Below are positions 55,666-64,000 of a stretch of DNA of 64,000 bases, in pieces. Source of the stretch: Gemmatimonadota bacterium (GTDB lineage Bacteria > Gemmatimonadota > Gemmatimonadetes > Longimicrobiales > Gaopeijiaceae); assembly GCA_029879725.1 (NCBI GenBank), contig JAOUPR010000002.1:62001-126000 (forward strand), read 5' to 3'. The notes under the pieces were generated by a model. It searched no databases and had not been told where the DNA came from. It was given only the letters and a program-made list of their open reading frames with translations. The position numbers and the translations under genes are program-made. Positions within the stretch are counted from its first letter, which is position 1, and each line of letters starts with the position of its first letter.

Positions 55666-55763
55666 TACTGGCTCAACATCCCGCTCCGTACCAGAGTCCT
55701 CGCCGCAACGCGGGCACTGGATCGATACGGGGCCCGTTTCACCCACGGACCGAGGGACCTGAC

Positions 55764-56393
55764 ATGCGGCTCTACGAGGTCGTCTATATTCTCGACCCGG
55801 CGCTCGATGAGGGCGCCGTGACCCAGAAGCTCGAAAAGTTCCACGCCCTGGCCACCGTCGGTGGTGGCGAGGTCGTCATGGTGGACCTCTGGGGCGTCCG
55901 CCAACTCGCCTATCCAATCCAGAAGAAGACCTCCGGTTACTACGTCGTGGCGCACGTCAACGCCGCCGCGGAGGCCCTTCCGGAATTCGAGCGGCTCCTC
56001 AAGCTCGACGAAGAGGTCATGCGCTATCTCCTCGTCCTCAACGAGGGAGAGCCCACCACGGGTAACTCCATCGTGGCCGAGTCCACCCGTCCCGAGCGTC
56101 CCGACGACGACGATGCCGAGGACGAGGAGGAGGAGGACGACGACGACGGGCGGGAGTCCCCACCCGAGTTCCAGGGGGGACGTGGCCGCCGTCGCCGGAT
56201 GGAGGGGCCGCCCATCATGCTCCTCAACTACAAGGACGTGTCGACGCTTTCGCGCTTCATGACCGAGCAGGGGAAGATCCTTCCGAAGCGGACGACCAAG
56301 GTGACCGCGGCGTTCCAGCGGCAACTGGGGCGGTCCGTCAAGCGGGCCCGATACCTGGCGTTGGTGCCCTACACGCGCCGAAACGAGGGGTAG
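55764..56393 (+). CDS. Fused ribosomal proteins bS6 and bS18
   Basis: This single 209-residue reading frame encodes two 30S proteins. Residues 1-95 are bS6 (MRLYEVVYILDPALDE, GVRQLAYPIQKKTSGYYVV, DEEVMRYLLVL). Residues 96-139 are a linker with an acidic run (DDDDAEDEEEEDDDD, about 114-128). Residues 140-209 are bS18, with an RGRRRR start, NYKDVSTLSRFMTEQGKILPKR (about 155-176, cited in parts) and AFQRQLGRSVKRARYLALVPYT. bS6 and bS18 form a heterodimer in the 30S platform. The usual rpsF-ssb-rpsR order is lost and no ssb is here. An internal ATG at 56217 has GGAGG 11 bases upstream, so separate S18 synthesis is possible but would drop the arginine-rich start. Confidence 0.9.
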   Translation: MRLYEVVYILDPALDEGAVTQKLEKFHALATVGGGEVVMVDLWGVRQLAYPIQKKTSGYYVVAHVNAAAEALPEFERLLKLDEEVMRYLLVLNEGEPTTGNSIVAESTRPERPDDDDAEDEEEEDDDDGRESPPEFQGGRGRRRRMEGPPIMLLNYKDVSTLSRFMTEQGKILPKRTTKVTAAFQRQLGRSVKRARYLALVPYTRRNEG

Positions 56394-56397
56394 CAGG

Positions 56398-57360
56398 GTG
56401 CCCGAGAGCCACGACGCTCCCGCGATTCCGAGCCGGTCCGGTCGGGGTTGGCAGCGGGCGGCCGCGTTGGCGGTGGCCACGGCCACCCTCGCGCTGGTGC
56501 ATCCGTTCCTCCTCATCGGCGTGCCGTTCCTGGCCCTCGCGCTGGTTCTGGGGGCTTCCGGGGGTGTGCTGGTCGCCGCGGGGGTGGTCGGAGTCGTGGT
56601 CGTGGGAGGATGGGCACAGGCCGACGCGACCTGGCTGGTGGAGCGGGGGTGGTCGGTGATGGTGGCGGGGTGGTTCGTCGCGCTCACGTTGAAGAGGCCC
56701 CGCGCGTCTCTTTCGGACCGGGCCATCTTTTCCGTTCTCGGAGCCGCCCTGGCGTCGGCGATGGTCTTCCGGATGCGTCCGGGTTCCTGGAGTGCGGTCG
56801 AGTGGGTGTTCTCCGAGCGCATTCTCAACGGCGTGGGGATGGCGGTTCAGACCTTCCGCGCGGTGTTGGAAAGCAACGGGCTCACGTCCGAGCAGGAAGC
56901 GTTGGTGTACGAGTCCGCGCAGCTGAACGCACAGGTGTTCCCCGCCATCCTCGGGTTGGCCACCGTGTCGGCGCTGGGCGTGGCGTGGTGGGTGTACGTG
57001 CGATTGCGGACCGGCGGCGATCAGGGGATCGGACCGCTCGTCGAGTTCCGATTCAACGATCACTTGATCTGGTTGTTCATCGGAGGACTCGCCCTGGTGA
57101 TGGCGCGGTGGGGAAACGCGCTGGTACGGGTCGGGACCAACGGTGTTGTATTCATGAGCGGCCTCTACGCGGTTCGTGGGGTCGCCGTCGCGCTGTTCAT
57201 GAGTGGTGGGCTGTCTCTGGTGGGTTTTCTCATCCTGGTGCCCCTGGTGTTGCTCTTCGGGTCCGTGGTGTTGCCTTTGTTGATCACGGGCGCACTGGTC
57301 ATCGGTGTGAGCGATACGTGGCTGGATGTGCGGACCCGTGTCCGGTCGATGGTCGCCTGA
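56398..57360 (+). CDS. DUF2232-type membrane protein (YybS-like)
   Basis: This 320-residue protein has eight or so hydrophobic segments, a pattern matching DUF2232/YybS proteins, which in many bacteria stand between rpsR and rplI. FNDHLIWLFIGGLALVMAR (about residues 219-237) is the most family-like stretch. It starts by GTG, 4 bases after the fusion stop, and is followed by rplI after 22 bases. Function is unknown; conserved position beside ribosomal genes suggests co-regulation. Confidence 0.8.
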   Translation: MPESHDAPAIPSRSGRGWQRAAALAVATATLALVHPFLLIGVPFLALALVLGASGGVLVAAGVVGVVVVGGWAQADATWLVERGWSVMVAGWFVALTLKRPRASLSDRAIFSVLGAALASAMVFRMRPGSWSAVEWVFSERILNGVGMAVQTFRAVLESNGLTSEQEALVYESAQLNAQVFPAILGLATVSALGVAWWVYVRLRTGGDQGIGPLVEFRFNDHLIWLFIGGLALVMARWGNALVRVGTNGVVFMSGLYAVRGVAVALFMSGGLSLVGFLILVPLVLLFGSVVLPLLITGALVIGVSDTWLDVRTRVRSMVA

Positions 57361-57843: not shown

Positions 57844-58209
57844 GTGGAGCGTCTCCTCCCCGGTGACCTGCCCGCTCCGGTGCGACGAGCCGCGGAGCTG
57901 ACCCTCGAACGCAAGGCCCACGCCGTGGTCGTGCTGGACCTTCGCGGCATCTCGTCGGCCACCGACTTCTTCGTCATCGCCAACGGGACGTCCGATGTCC
58001 AGGTCGGAGCCATCGCTGAGCACGTGAGGGATACGCTGAAGGACGAAGGCGTACCACCGGAGCACGTCGAGGGGATGAAGGGGGGGCGTTGGGCGCTCCT
58101 CGATTACATCGACTTCGTGGTGCACGTGTTTCACCCCGAAGCCCGTATGTTCTATTCACTGGACAACCTCTGGGGCGACGCGCCCCGGTGGGAGGTGGAG
58201 GAGACGTAG
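57844..58209 (+). CDS. rsfS: Ribosomal silencing factor RsfS
   Basis: RsfS binds uL14 and blocks subunit joining in slow growth. The 121-residue protein has KAHAVVVLDLRGISSATDFF (about residues 24-43) and FVIANGTSDVQVGAIAEHV, then WALLDYIDFVVHVFHPEAR (about 82-100). It starts by GTG 5 bases after rplI, an order fitting a ribosome-biogenesis operon. Confidence 0.95.
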   Translation: MERLLPGDLPAPVRRAAELTLERKAHAVVVLDLRGISSATDFFVIANGTSDVQVGAIAEHVRDTLKDEGVPPEHVEGMKGGRWALLDYIDFVVHVFHPEARMFYSLDNLWGDAPRWEVEET

Positions 58210-58316
58210 CGCCCCCGGGTGTCCGCGTCCTAAGTTGTGTGCCGTCGCGCCGCAGGGCGCTATGAATGAGAGGCGGACCTGGAGGAGGCCCGCCCGACCC
58301 TCGAACCCTTCGATGC

Positions 58317-60797
58317 ATGACCGTGGAATTGCCGCCATGGACACCGTTCAGCGCCGATAGCGTACCGGCGCTCCCCTACTTCGGGGAGGACCGGGGCGGG
58401 GTCGTGACCATCGTGGCGTCCAAGGGTGTGGGGCGGACCCATGAGGCGGGGGACCTCCTCCTCACGGCGGTGCGCCGGTGGGCTCACTGGGGTGAGCGCG
58501 TCGTCGTGATGGACATCGGACTGGACAACCCCACGCTGCACGTGAATCTGGGGCTGCCCAACTCCGAGGGGGTGTCGGACGCACTCCTGTTCGGATCGTC
58601 GTTGGAAAGGGTCGCCCAGCCCGTGTCCGGTGGTGCCGGGTTCTTCTTCGTTCCTGCGGGGATGCCGGTGGCCGATCCGGGCTCCGTCGTCGCGGCAGGG
58701 CGGTGGGCTCGCCTCTGCGAAGGGTTCCGCGACGCCGGGGTGGTTCTCGCCCTCTTCGTTTCGGAAGAGGAGTCGACACGGGTCCAGGCAGTGGCCCACG
58801 CGGATCGGGCCATCGTGATCTGCCTTCCCGGGGAGGACGCCGGAGAAGTGCTCGGGCGTACGGACATCCCCACGCTGGCGGTTTTCGGTCCCGAGGTGTC
58901 CGGTGGTCCGGTGGAGGTCATCGAGTCTGAGGCCGCGGTTCCGGCGGCGACGGTCGAGGAGCCGGAGAGGTCGGTGGCGGATCCCGTGGTGGAAACCCCG
59001 GTTGAGGCGACCGCGGAAGAAGCCGATCGGTACATCAGCCTCGAAGAGGCGTTGTCGATGTCCGCCGCGTCCCTGGTCGACGAAGGGACGGCGGTCGAGT
59101 CGGACCGTGTGGTGGAAGAAGACGCGACGGTCGATCCGGCCCCCGTGGTCGAGGAGGAGACCGTGTTCGGTGCGGGACCCGCATCCGACGCGGAGCCGGT
59201 CGCCGAAGCACGCCCGGGAGTCACGCCGGAACCGGACACCTTCTTCGGCATCGGCGCGGCCGCCGGCTCGGACCTCAGCGAGGAGGAGGCGTTCCTCGGT
59301 GGCGCGCTCGAGATCGATCTCCCCGACGAGGGCATGGCGAACATCTGGGCCGTCGAGACGGAGTCCGACGACTTCTTCACCGAACTGGATACCGCGGCCC
59401 TCGGTCCGGACGAACCCTCCTCGGAGGCCGAACCGACCGCGGAAGTCGTTGAGGAGCCCGCCGTCGTGACTTCGGCGGCCGAGCCTCTCGTAGCCGAGCC
59501 CGAAGGTGAGACGGTGGACACGCCGGACGAGTCGGCGGCATGGTCCGCCGGGGCGGCTCCGTCGGCGGTCTCCGATGGCGGGACGTCCGAGAAGGCCGTC
59601 GGCGACGTCGCCGAGGACGCTCCCCTGGAGCAGTTCGACACGGCGTTCCTCGCCGATCTCATGGCGGACCTGGCCGGGGACTCCGATGCGGAACCCGATG
59701 ATCCGTCCATGGAGGCGTCGGACTCCGCCCCCGAAGAGGAGGAGGCCCTCCCCTCCGACATGCTGGACACCTTCCGCAGCGCGGCCGCCGAGGACATCCA
59801 GTCCCTCCTCCTGGGGCAGTCCGGGTCATCGGAAGACGAGGAGGATCTTCTCTCCGATCCGCTGGGCGCCTCTCACGAGGGGGGCGACGATGCGCTTTTC
59901 GACCCCCTGGCGGCCGATCCCATCGATCTGGTGCCGGATGCCGGGGTGTCGGCGCCGGCCGGAGGACCCCAGCGGGAGGTCGCGGCGGAATCGGCGGAGG
60001 GGGTGCGGATCGTCGGATCGCCGGACATCCACGAGGACATGGAGGTGTTCGTCACCTCGTCGCGGCCCGCGCCGGTGGTCAGGACGGTGCCGAACTACAC
60101 CCGGGCCCTCCTCCTCCTCCTCCTCCTGGTCCTCGTCTCGGCCGGGTACATGGGGTATGTCGAGATTCCCTGGATCACCTCCGGGGTGGACATGCACGAC
60201 ATCTTCCCGGAGGCCTTCGACGAGGAAGCAGGGAGTGCCGCCGACGCGGCCTCGGCAGGCGCGCCGGTGACTCCAGCGGCGCGGGTGCGATACACGAGTC
60301 CGGTGGTGCCCTACACGGTGACACTCGGCGCCATCCGCGACGTCGATCAGGTCGAGAGCTTCGTGGCGGACGTGCGGGAGCGGGTTCCCGAAGTGCTCTT
60401 CTACGTCGTCCCCGTGGAGGTGAGCGGCATCCTCTACCACCGGGTGATGGCGGGCGCGGAAGGAGACGAAGCGGGCGCGGCGGCGTTGGCCGATCGGCTC
60501 GCCGAGGCGCTGGGGCGTGAAGTGGACGACATGTTGGTTCGGTCCACTCCATTGGCGTTCCGGATCGGGGAGCTTCCCGACGTGGAAACGGCCCGTGCCC
60601 GAGCCGCCAGCATCGAGGCGGCCGGCGTGCCCGGCTACGTCCTCGCGGTGGACGTCTCCGACGGCCGGACTCTATTCCGGGTGTACGCGGGGGCCTTCGA
60701 AAAGGAACCCGACGCCACCTACCTTCAGAACCAACTCGCGCAGCGGGGCCTCGGCATGGCCGTGCTGACCCAACGGACGGGCCGTCTTCCCGAATGA
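58317..60797 (+). CDS. Degenerate P-loop, acidic linker, membrane helix, SPOR-repeat protein
   Basis: The 826-residue protein has four parts. Residues about 20-190 resemble a MinD/CpsD-type P-loop domain: GGVVTIVASKGVGRTHEAGD (about 27-46) sits where the deviant Walker A would be but reads KGVGRT, and RVVVMDIGLDNPTLHVNLG follows. Residues about 200-590 are a very acidic, low-complexity linker. NYTRALLLLLLLVLVSAGYM (about 595-617) is one membrane helix. The C-terminus (about 660-815) has two SPOR-like repeats (PYTVTLGAIRDVDQVESF; AFRIGELPDVETARARAAS), which would bind denuded septal glycan. The ATG at 58317 excludes a glycine-rich lead-in. It overlaps smc by 4 bases (ATGA). Confidence 0.75.
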   Translation: MTVELPPWTPFSADSVPALPYFGEDRGGVVTIVASKGVGRTHEAGDLLLTAVRRWAHWGERVVVMDIGLDNPTLHVNLGLPNSEGVSDALLFGSSLERVAQPVSGGAGFFFVPAGMPVADPGSVVAAGRWARLCEGFRDAGVVLALFVSEEESTRVQAVAHADRAIVICLPGEDAGEVLGRTDIPTLAVFGPEVSGGPVEVIESEAAVPAATVEEPERSVADPVVETPVEATAEEADRYISLEEALSMSAASLVDEGTAVESDRVVEEDATVDPAPVVEEETVFGAGPASDAEPVAEARPGVTPEPDTFFGIGAAAGSDLSEEEAFLGGALEIDLPDEGMANIWAVETESDDFFTELDTAALGPDEPSSEAEPTAEVVEEPAVVTSAAEPLVAEPEGETVDTPDESAAWSAGAAPSAVSDGGTSEKAVGDVAEDAPLEQFDTAFLADLMADLAGDSDAEPDDPSMEASDSAPEEEEALPSDMLDTFRSAAAEDIQSLLLGQSGSSEDEEDLLSDPLGASHEGGDDALFDPLAADPIDLVPDAGVSAPAGGPQREVAAESAEGVRIVGSPDIHEDMEVFVTSSRPAPVVRTVPNYTRALLLLLLLVLVSAGYMGYVEIPWITSGVDMHDIFPEAFDEEAGSAADAASAGAPVTPAARVRYTSPVVPYTVTLGAIRDVDQVESFVADVRERVPEVLFYVVPVEVSGILYHRVMAGAEGDEAGAAALADRLAEALGREVDDMLVRSTPLAFRIGELPDVETARARAASIEAAGVPGYVLAVDVSDGRTLFRVYAGAFEKEPDATYLQNQLAQRGLGMAVLTQRTGRLPE

Positions 60798-63700
60798 AGC
60801 TCAAATCCCTGAAGATCCACGGTTTCAAGTCCTTCGCCGACAGCACCAAAGTGGAGTTCCACGACGGCATCACCGCCATCGTCGGTCCCAACGGGTGCGG
60901 CAAGTCGAACATCAGCGACGCCATCCGCTGGGTGCTGGGTGAGCAACGCCCCACCGCGATCCGCGGCGCCAAGATGGAGGAGGCCATCTTCCAGGGCTCG
61001 GTGAACCGCCGGCCGGTGAACCGCGGTTTCGTCTCCATGACGGTGACCAACGAGGACGGCGCGCTCCCGGTTCCCTTCGAGGAGGTGGAGATCGGCCGGC
61101 AGGTCTACCGGGACGGGGGGAGCGACTACAGCCTCAACCGCTCGTCCTGCCGTCTCAAGGACGTGGTGGACCTCTGCCGGGACACCGGCTTGGGGGCGAA
61201 CGCGTACAACGTCATCGAGAACCGGATGGTGGACGCCATCCTCTCCGATCGGGCCGACGAGCGCCGGAGCCTCTTCGAGGAGGCGGCGGGGATCGGGAAG
61301 TACAAGGATCGCCGCAAGGCCGCGCTACGGAGGCTGGAACGAGCGGAGATGGACCTCCAGCGTCTCGACGACGTGATCGCGGAGATCCAGACGAAGGTCC
61401 GTTCGCTGGCCCGGCAGAAGGGGAAGGCCGAGCGGTACATGGAGTATCGGAAGCGGAGGCTCGACGTCGAGGTGACCGTGGTGCGGCACCAGCTCGACGT
61501 CCTTTCCCAGCGTCTTTCCGGCGTCGCCAGGGAACTCGAGGGCGATCTCCAGGACGGGGAAGGCAAGATCGCCGAGTTGAGGGCCGCGGAAACGGAGTTC
61601 GAGTCCCTCCGACTGAAGGAAGTCGAGGCCCAGCAGGCCAGGTCCGGGGCGGCGGGCGTTCTGGAGCGTCTGCGAGAGCAGTTGGTGAAGTGGGAGCGTG
61701 ACCTGGCGGTGGCCGAGGAGAGGGCGGTGTACGCCGAACGGCGCCTCGCCCAGATCGGCGAGGAACGGGCGGAGGCGGACACCCGGCAAGGGCAGCTCGG
61801 CACCGACGCCGACGAGCTCCAGACTCGCCGGGCCGCCATGCAGGGTGAGCTCGACGAGTTGAGGAGCGTGGCGGAGGCGCGCCGTGCCGAGTTCCAGGAG
61901 GTTCGCGACCGTATGCAGGAGGCGCGGAGCGTCCTCGAAGGCGTGGAGAGCCGCGAGCGGGAGTTGGCGCGCCGCGGGGCCCAGCTCGAAGGAGACGCCG
62001 AGGCGTCGGAAGCGCAGGCGGCCGAATTGGAGAGGAGGCTGGAGCGACTCACGTCCGATCTCGAGGCGGCGGCGACCGAGTTGACCGACCTCGAATCCCA
62101 GGGAGACCTGTTCTCCGGACGGATGGACGACCTGGCACGCGCCGCCGATGACAGCCGGGTGGCCGTGGATGCCGCGGTGACGGCGGTCTCCGAGGCACGC
62201 AGGACGCTGGAGGAGTTCCGCACCCTCGAGCTCGGGGCCGCGGACCGCGCCTCGTCTCTCGCGGCGCGGAAGGGAGCCCTCGAGCGGATGGACCGCGACC
62301 AGGAGGGCGTGGAGCCGGCGGCCAAGGCGGCCCTGGCTCTGGGGGAAGAGGGGATCCTGGGGATGCTGACGGATTTCATCGAAGCCGACACCGCGCTGGC
62401 GCCCGCCGTGGAGTCCTATCTGGGCAATCTCGCGCGGGGGTTGGTGGTCCGCGATTCGGCCTCCGTGGGCCGGGTGCGCGAGTGGTTCCGGGACGAGTGG
62501 AGCGGGGGGGGAGGCCTGGTGCTTCTCTCCCTCGACCGCGTGCCGGACGAACAGCATGGTGGGTCGCTTCTCCGGGAGGTGAACGCCACCGGCGCGGGCG
62601 CTCCGTGGGTACGGGCGCTCCTGGGTGGGGTCGACGTGGTGGACGAGGCCGCGCTGGATGCTCCCGGGACTGGTGAGCGGGTCGCGCGCTCCGGCGGCGT
62701 CGTGGACGGGCGCGGCGTGGTCCGCATCGGGAACCCCGCCGGAGCCACCGGCGTGCTCGAGCGACGTGAACAGCTCCGCACGCTGGCCATGGAGCACGAG
62801 GAGGCCGTCGCGGCCGCCGACGAGGCCCGCGCGCGGCGCGAAGCCGCGGAGGAGGCGTTCCGCGTCGCGGAGTCCGCTCTCGACGGGGCGCGCCAGGCCC
62901 TGGTGGAAGCCGACGATTCGCACCGTAAGGCGCGCGCGGTGGTGGAGGCCCAGTACGATCAGACGACGCGGCTGAACCGCCATCGCGACGAGCTGGCCCG
63001 ACAGGCCGAGGGGACGCGTGCCGCTCGTTCACGTTCGCTGGACCGGGCGCGGGAGGCGCGGGAGGACCGGGGTGTCCTCGTCTCCGAGGAGGAGGGGATC
63101 CATACCCGCCGCGCCGAGGCGAGGGCGGTGGTGGAGGCGGTTCAGGAGGAATGGGAGACGGTTCGTGCCGAAGAGGCCCGCATCGCCGTGGATCTGGCCC
63201 GTATGGAGGGAGAGTACGCGCGCATCGTCGAGCGCCTCGAGTCCGTCGAACGCGCGCGAGCGGAGGCGCAGAGCCGAATCCAGTCCCTCGCGGTCGAGGA
63301 GGAGTCTCTGGGGGCCGAGCTCGCGTCCGCCCGATCCCTTCGGGAGGACGGTGGAGATGCCTTGGAGAAGCTCTTCGCGGAACGGACCGCCGCCGAGGGG
63401 GCGCTCAGGGAGAAGGAGGAAGCCCTGACCCGGGTGGTGGAGGCCCTGGCGAGTACGGAGCGCCGTGTCCGGGAAGCCCGCACGGAGGAGCGCGCGGCAT
63501 CGGACAGGAGGCATACCCTGGAACTCGAGCGCCAGGAGTTGGGCGGGCGGATCGACCGGATCCGTGAGCGTCTGGAGGGGGAGTGGGGTCGGACCCTGGA
63601 GGCGCTGCTCGCCGACGCCGACGAAGTCGAAGGAGAGCAGGAGGCGCTCCAGCAGGAGCTCAGAGAGCTCGTGATCGCCCTCGAGAAGCTCGGGCCGGTG

Positions 63701-64000
63701 AACATGTTGGCGGTGGAGGAGCACGAGGAGGAGAGCAAGCGCCTCCAGTTCCTCACCGAGCAGAGAGACGATCTGGTGGAGGCGCGCAACGATCTCCGGT
63801 CCGCCATTCGCGAGATCAACCGCACCGCCACGGAACTCTTCGAAGGGACCTTCAACAAGATCCGCGAGAATTTCCGCGAGACGTTCCTGAGGCTCTTCGA
63901 GGGGGGCGAGGCCGATATCTGGCTCGAAAACCCCGAGGACCCCCTCGAGTCGCCCGTGGAGATCCACGCGTCTCCCAGGGGGAAGAAGACCCAGCGCATC
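60794..64000 (+). CDS. smc: Chromosome segregation protein SMC (cut by window end)
   Basis: SMC forms V-shaped dimers that compact and segregate the chromosome with ScpAB. The window holds 1069 codons of the frame, with no stop up to the edge. Visible are LKSLKIHGFKSFADSTKVEF (N-terminus), Walker A GPNGCGKSN (about residues 31-39), two long coiled-coil arms, a hinge (GMLTDFIEADTALAPAVESYLG, about 523-544, cited in parts), and the beginning of the C-terminal head (NFRETFLRLFEGGEADIWLE). The signature motif and Walker B lie beyond the window. Start ATG at 60794 overlaps the SPOR protein stop. Confidence 0.96.
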   Translation, partial: MKLKSLKIHGFKSFADSTKVEFHDGITAIVGPNGCGKSNISDAIRWVLGEQRPTAIRGAKMEEAIFQGSVNRRPVNRGFVSMTVTNEDGALPVPFEEVEIGRQVYRDGGSDYSLNRSSCRLKDVVDLCRDTGLGANAYNVIENRMVDAILSDRADERRSLFEEAAGIGKYKDRRKAALRRLERAEMDLQRLDDVIAEIQTKVRSLARQKGKAERYMEYRKRRLDVEVTVVRHQLDVLSQRLSGVARELEGDLQDGEGKIAELRAAETEFESLRLKEVEAQQARSGAAGVLERLREQLVKWERDLAVAEERAVYAERRLAQIGEERAEADTRQGQLGTDADELQTRRAAMQGELDELRSVAEARRAEFQEVRDRMQEARSVLEGVESRERELARRGAQLEGDAEASEAQAAELERRLERLTSDLEAAATELTDLESQGDLFSGRMDDLARAADDSRVAVDAAVTAVSEARRTLEEFRTLELGAADRASSLAARKGALERMDRDQEGVEPAAKAALALGEEGILGMLTDFIEADTALAPAVESYLGNLARGLVVRDSASVGRVREWFRDEWSGGGGLVLLSLDRVPDEQHGGSLLREVNATGAGAPWVRALLGGVDVVDEAALDAPGTGERVARSGGVVDGRGVVRIGNPAGATGVLERREQLRTLAMEHEEAVAAADEARARREAAEEAFRVAESALDGARQALVEADDSHRKARAVVEAQYDQTTRLNRHRDELARQAEGTRAARSRSLDRAREAREDRGVLVSEEEGIHTRRAEARAVVEAVQEEWETVRAEEARIAVDLARMEGEYARIVERLESVERARAEAQSRIQSLAVEEESLGAELASARSLREDGGDALEKLFAERTAAEGALREKEEALTRVVEALASTERRVREARTEERAASDRRHTLELERQELGGRIDRIRERLEGEWGRTLEALLADADEVEGEQEALQQELRELVIALEKLGPVNMLAVEEHEEESKRLQFLTEQRDDLVEARNDLRSAIREINRTATELFEGTFNKIRENFRETFLRLFEGGEADIWLENPEDPLESPVEIHASPRGKKTQRI

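Follow-up and report, generated by a model that had tools for sequence, protein, structure and literature searches.

The question raised by this locus is what may be done by a single protein, P0001, in which a degenerate nucleotide-binding fold is joined to a pair of SPOR repeats and whose gene runs directly into smc. The gene lies in a 64,000-nucleotide stretch of DNA from a Gemmatimonadota bacterium, which we refer to as the window (Table 1). The original prediction, made from the sequence of the window, described a MinD/CpsD-like pseudo-ATPase carrying a linker, one membrane helix and two SPOR-like repeats, coupled to smc by an ATGA overlap; the overlap is present. Alignment with relatives shows that the open reading frame and its start (MTVELPPW...) were called correctly from the outset: the open frame extends further upstream, to an ATG at 58266, but relatives align from 58317. 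In the family to which the window belongs, the gene order is rpsF-rpsR, a membrane protein gene, rplI, rsfS, the P0001-type gene and smc.

Two features of this neighbourhood were noted in passing. A 210-aa frame of the window encodes a fusion of ribosomal proteins bS6 and bS18 with an acidic linker between them (55761-56393; Pfam S6 E 7.6e-27, S18 E 1.2e-18), and the two are fused likewise in locus L035 of the same family; the genes are separate in L049 (family f3). The membrane protein between rpsR and rplI (56398-57360) shares ~32-50% identity among relatives and has no Pfam or NCBIfam match. A NifZ match for this neighbour of P0001 (E 0.56) was below cut-off and was dropped, as was a CysS_C match (E 0.056).

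Table 1. Positions of P0001, its parts and its flanking genes in the window.
Feature	Coordinates	Strand	Remark
rsfS	57844..58209	+	directly precedes smc in genomes without a P0001-type gene
P0001 gene (826-aa pseudokinase-linker-TM-SPOR-SPOR protein)	58317..60797	+	
BY-kinase-fold domain, predicted cytoplasmic, catalytically degenerate, residues ~20-190	58374..58886	+	
P-loop relic KGVGRT, residues 36-41	58422..58439	+	no P-loop in relatives
Asp66, first Asp of Walker A'	58512..58514	+	invariant in 35/35 aligned members
Acidic low-complexity linker, residues 201-585, net charge -92	58917..60071	+	
Single membrane helix, near residues 591-613	60087..60155	+	hydropathy
SPOR repeat 1, 25.9 bits	60309..60509	+	strand-1 Gln replaced by Thr
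SPOR repeat 2, 36.2 bits	60561..60755	+	
P0001 stop / smc start overlap, ATGA	60794..60797	+	
smc, runs off window	60794..64000	+	SMC_N E 1e-35, hinge

The fold of the N-terminal domain is nearer to BY-kinases such as CpsD than to MinD. Searched as a single protein against NCBIfam, residues 19-169 show a weak but significant resemblance to the tyrosine kinase EpsG (E 3.6e-6), with a score of 26.3 bits that is under the NCBIfam cut-off of 313.8. Among the 35 aligned family members, the EpsG model is matched by 30 and the XrtA-associated kinase model by 32. When the profile of this alignment was compared with PDB sequences, BceF and Wzc were found at E 4e-10, and MinD only at E 1.5. An AlphaFold2 model of residues 1-200, computed with seven relatives, has a pLDDT of 87.3 and a pTM of 0.85, and its best 50 structural matches in the PDB are all BY-kinases (Wzc, Etk, CapB, VpsO, BceF; TM ~0.7 by query). 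The similarity to P-loop proteins on which the original prediction depended is thus recovered by HMM searches. Because both the PDB profile and the model matches point to BY-kinases, CpsD is the closer of the two likenesses named in the original prediction, and MinD the more distant.

The catalytic motifs are lost. Aligned to the P-loop of BceF, KGVGRT has an Arg in place of the catalytic Lys, and nothing closer to a P-loop was seen in the family. In relatives, the segment at that position has no glycine loop (a typical example is TPFARNQGWAERAAVALA); a motif search found no P-loop there in any of ~75 members across the phylum, and the family does not match the deviant Walker A motif KGGxGK[ST] of MinD/ParA either. 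The Walker A motif had been predicted to be broken, which is correct for P0001 and understates the case for its relatives, none of which was found to have a conserved Walker A. The second Asp of Walker A' is replaced, the family alignment contains no conserved Walker B Asp, and the C-terminal Tyr-rich cluster is absent, with one Tyr within residues 201-585 of P0001. Further positions are invariant (G85, D88, G93, G115) or nearly so (W130), which suggests that a binding surface has been retained. Judged from these alignments, the P0001 family is an old pseudo-enzyme, with the P-loop lost in every relative examined, which rules out an ordinary ATPase or kinase activity of its inner domain.

The linker was predicted as nearly 400 acidic residues and measures 385, of which 26% are Asp or Glu. 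It is followed by the one expected membrane helix and, after the helix, by a G..xIPx motif that is also kept in short forms of the protein. Hydropathy and flanking charge place the N-terminus of P0001 probably inside and the SPOR part in the periplasm; the domain order of this bitopic layout agrees with a single N-in helix and a C-terminal periplasmic SPOR part.

Both predicted SPOR repeats score above the curated cut-off of the Pfam SPOR model (PF05036; 21 bits). Structure prediction, which gave a BY-kinase fold for the N-terminal domain, yields two SPOR-like units here: an AlphaFold2 model of residues 656-826, computed with four relatives, consists of two beta-alpha-beta-beta-alpha-beta (RNP-like) units with a pLDDT of 89.7. 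In Foldseek, the SPOR-pair model matches the RlpA SPOR-glycan structure 6i09 with a probability of 1.00 and a TM of 0.73 by target at an E-value of only 0.011, and DedD (6ztg) is also among the matches; the E-values are modest, since a tandem query also picks up ferredoxin-like pairs that are unrelated. Compared with the PDB by sequence, the SPOR part gave chance matches only. Glycan recognition by RlpA is reported to depend critically on Q270 and basic residues (PMC6895207). Septal binding is likely in the family as a whole and less certain in P0001 itself, because the strand-1 Gln, equated with RlpA Q270 by motif only, is replaced in both of its repeats (by Thr in repeat 1 and by Arg in repeat 2) and is kept in relatives from families f4 and f11. 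The search of the same genome found a single further SPOR protein, which is secreted and TPR-like and has a canonical VQLGAY strand (L001:520-1752, C177).

P0001 was matched in 49 of 59 near relatives. Its profile was matched in 341 of the 395 genomes of the phylum, which is an upper bound, as the weaker matches include probable true BY-kinases with frames of ~760-900 aa; the relatives thus probably encode full-length BY-kinases elsewhere, matched separately and more weakly. When genomes were scanned with the N-terminal sequence of P0001 by itself, no matches were obtained. With a narrower alignment and one peptide pattern, seven named loci were obtained, all from Gemmatimonadota, a result that says nothing on absence from other phyla. 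Fourteen of the members sampled in the window's family lack SPOR, and the 13 of these that were checked all keep the dead domain, the linker, the helix and the motif after the helix. Other genera of this family no longer have the gene. SPOR-bearing forms are present in nearly every family sampled, and for this reason loss of SPOR appears simpler than gain; on the SMC tree, the SPOR, SPOR-less and gene-absent states require ~10 changes. Since the dead domain is kept in short forms without SPOR, its function inside the cell seems to be under selection.

In the loci sampled, the P0001-type gene adjoins smc across most of Gemmatimonadota. Where both gene ends are readable (63 loci, a few of them near-copies of each other), the gap to the smc start is -4 in 43, -1 in 10 and 0 in 4, together 57 of the 63. 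Families f4 and f5 differ upstream, with other genes, among them those for a second SPOR protein and a ~1080-aa protein, separating rsfS from the P0001-type gene, and smc still adjoins. The second SPOR protein has ~500 aa and is encoded just upstream (L117:5605-7083 and equivalents); at L146:3961-5652, a SPOR protein of this kind is encoded before smc in a locus that has no pseudokinase gene. At L038:8119-11962, the pseudokinase-SPOR gene is present twice in tandem ahead of smc, and SPOR-bearing relatives occur away from smc at L072 and L073.

The association with smc is common and not universal. Nine sampled genomes have no such gene at the smc site, and in most of them smc follows rsfS after a few to a few hundred bases; smc has no P0001-type gene beside it in the sampled genomes of genera g15, g23, g25, g26 and g27, and in one of g35. 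We rejected the idea that a small remnant is always left between rsfS and smc, as most genomes lacking the gene have a clean gap. A 48-aa frame resembling the family N-terminus, 55 bases before smc in genome G034 (L141), is probably a decaying copy. In the deep-branching family f11, the protein (frames of 759-1,208 aa, the shortest truncated at the end of its contig) is not encoded beside smc; partial SMC-like matches near these loci were not taken as smc, as no smc N-terminus is present there. Judged by gene order, a functional link of P0001 to smc is favoured over one to polysaccharides, and the link to SMC, being drawn from gene order only, could also reflect operon packing.

We tentatively propose, with slightly less than even confidence, that P0001 acts at the division site as a bitopic scaffold without catalytic activity, with a dead BY-kinase fold inside and a SPOR pair outside, made together with SMC. 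To the domains, predicted fold, lost catalytic motifs, conservation and gene coupling, this proposal adds a septal localisation, suggested by the SPOR repeats, and a scaffold action, suggested by the loss of catalysis and by the precedent of EcpK. The two periplasmic SPOR repeats would hold P0001 to septal (denuded) peptidoglycan, the single helix would cross the inner membrane with the N-terminus inside, and a long, negative and probably disordered tether would carry the BY-kinase-fold domain, which would act by partner binding and not by ATP turnover. The outside role would be that of the SPOR domains of FtsN or DamX and the inside role that of EcpK; we favour a scaffold because EcpK, a BY pseudokinase, binds its partner directly and is itself a proposed scaffold (PMC12004946). 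Translated together with SMC, P0001 would probably help to match septum formation to the nucleoid. The SPOR-less relatives, the sampled genomes that have smc and no such gene beside it, the location of the f11 protein away from smc and the replaced strand-1 Gln of P0001 count against this proposal. SPOR proteins usually reach the septum after constriction has begun, and therefore coordination or closure seems likelier than first placement of the ring.

A plainer role is a real possibility that we nevertheless doubt: P0001 may be an ordinary envelope SPOR protein for cell-wall maintenance or division, encoded in a compact ribosomal-protein/smc operon with no tie to SMC, the ATGA being a matter of packing. 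The conservation of the upstream run rpsF-rplI-rsfS fits this well, as do the genera that keep smc without the gene, the location of the f11 protein elsewhere than smc, the tandem copy at L038 and the relatives away from smc at L072 and L073. It accounts less readily for a coupling to smc that survives the change of upstream neighbours in f4 and f5, for overlaps that are mostly of exactly 1 or 4 bases, and for short forms that keep the dead domain without SPOR.

The inner domain also admits other interpretations. Its fold is specifically that of a BY-kinase, and EcpK and HfsB provide a precedent for non-catalytic domains in polysaccharide synthesis; P0001 could thus be a pseudokinase of their kind that serves as scaffold for an envelope polysaccharide machine and has acquired SPOR for septal placement. 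We consider this unlikely, as no co-polymerase or synthesis gene was recognised nearby in the loci read, where the neighbours are ribosomal proteins, rsfS and smc, and as probable full-length BY-kinases sit elsewhere in relatives. Far less probable still is an active positioning ATPase of the MinD/ParA kind with a merely unusual P-loop. The invariant first Asp of Walker A' and the G, G and T kept in KGVGRT would suit such an enzyme, but the P-loop Lys is Arg in P0001, the motif is missing in ~75 relatives, no Walker B Asp is conserved, and the profile prefers BY-kinases to MinD by E 4e-10 against 1.5.

The original prediction knew of no described family with this architecture, and our literature search likewise found no paper on SPOR with a BY-kinase, nor on SPOR together with smc and MinD; the parts of P0001 are known, and their combination was not found in the literature searched. 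A 2024 study (PMC11271474) reports that cell division in Gemmatimonadota is an FtsZ-based fission in unusual planes, that MinCDE, MipZ, PomZ, MapZ and SsgAB seem to be missing, and that ParA-like proteins may serve instead. The P0001 family, widespread in the phylum, coupled to smc and predicted to reach from the cytoplasm to the wall, offers a concrete candidate here. We speculate, and think it improbable in this strong form, that a Gemmatimonadota-specific system ties the choice or closure of the division site to the nucleoid through a SPOR-tethered dead ParA-superfamily domain made with SMC, in replacement of the absent Min, MipZ and PomZ. If the scaffold role that we prefer is true, BY pseudokinases would be extended from polysaccharide export to cell division, and the natural losses of SPOR or of the whole gene offer ready comparisons for the function of the family.

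Among known systems, the BY-kinases CpsD, CapB and Wzc are closest to P0001 in fold and sequence profile; P0001 differs in having lost Walker A and B and in having neither a Tyr-rich tail nor a Wzz part. EcpK and HfsB resemble P0001 in that their BY-kinase fold has neither Walker motifs nor a Tyr-rich tail, and a non-catalytic scaffold role has been proposed for them (PMC12004946). EcpK is a stand-alone protein of an exopolysaccharide cluster, whereas the domain in P0001 is fused to a membrane helix and a SPOR pair and coupled to smc, and in the loci read neither a PCP-2 partner nor a polysaccharide gene cluster, both traits of EcpK, was recognised beside it. MinD, ParA, MipZ and PomZ have the same superfamily fold and a similar setting near a chromosome-organising gene; they are cycling proteins, whereas P0001 has no P-loop and is anchored by its helix. 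FtsN and DamX, like P0001, combine a cytoplasmic part and one membrane helix with a C-terminal SPOR part in the periplasm, and the DamX of some gammaproteobacteria has an additional ExeA-like AAA domain. In FtsN, however, a short cytoplasmic part is paired with one SPOR, whereas P0001 pairs a predicted cytoplasmic part of ~590 residues, made up of the dead fold and the acidic linker, with two.
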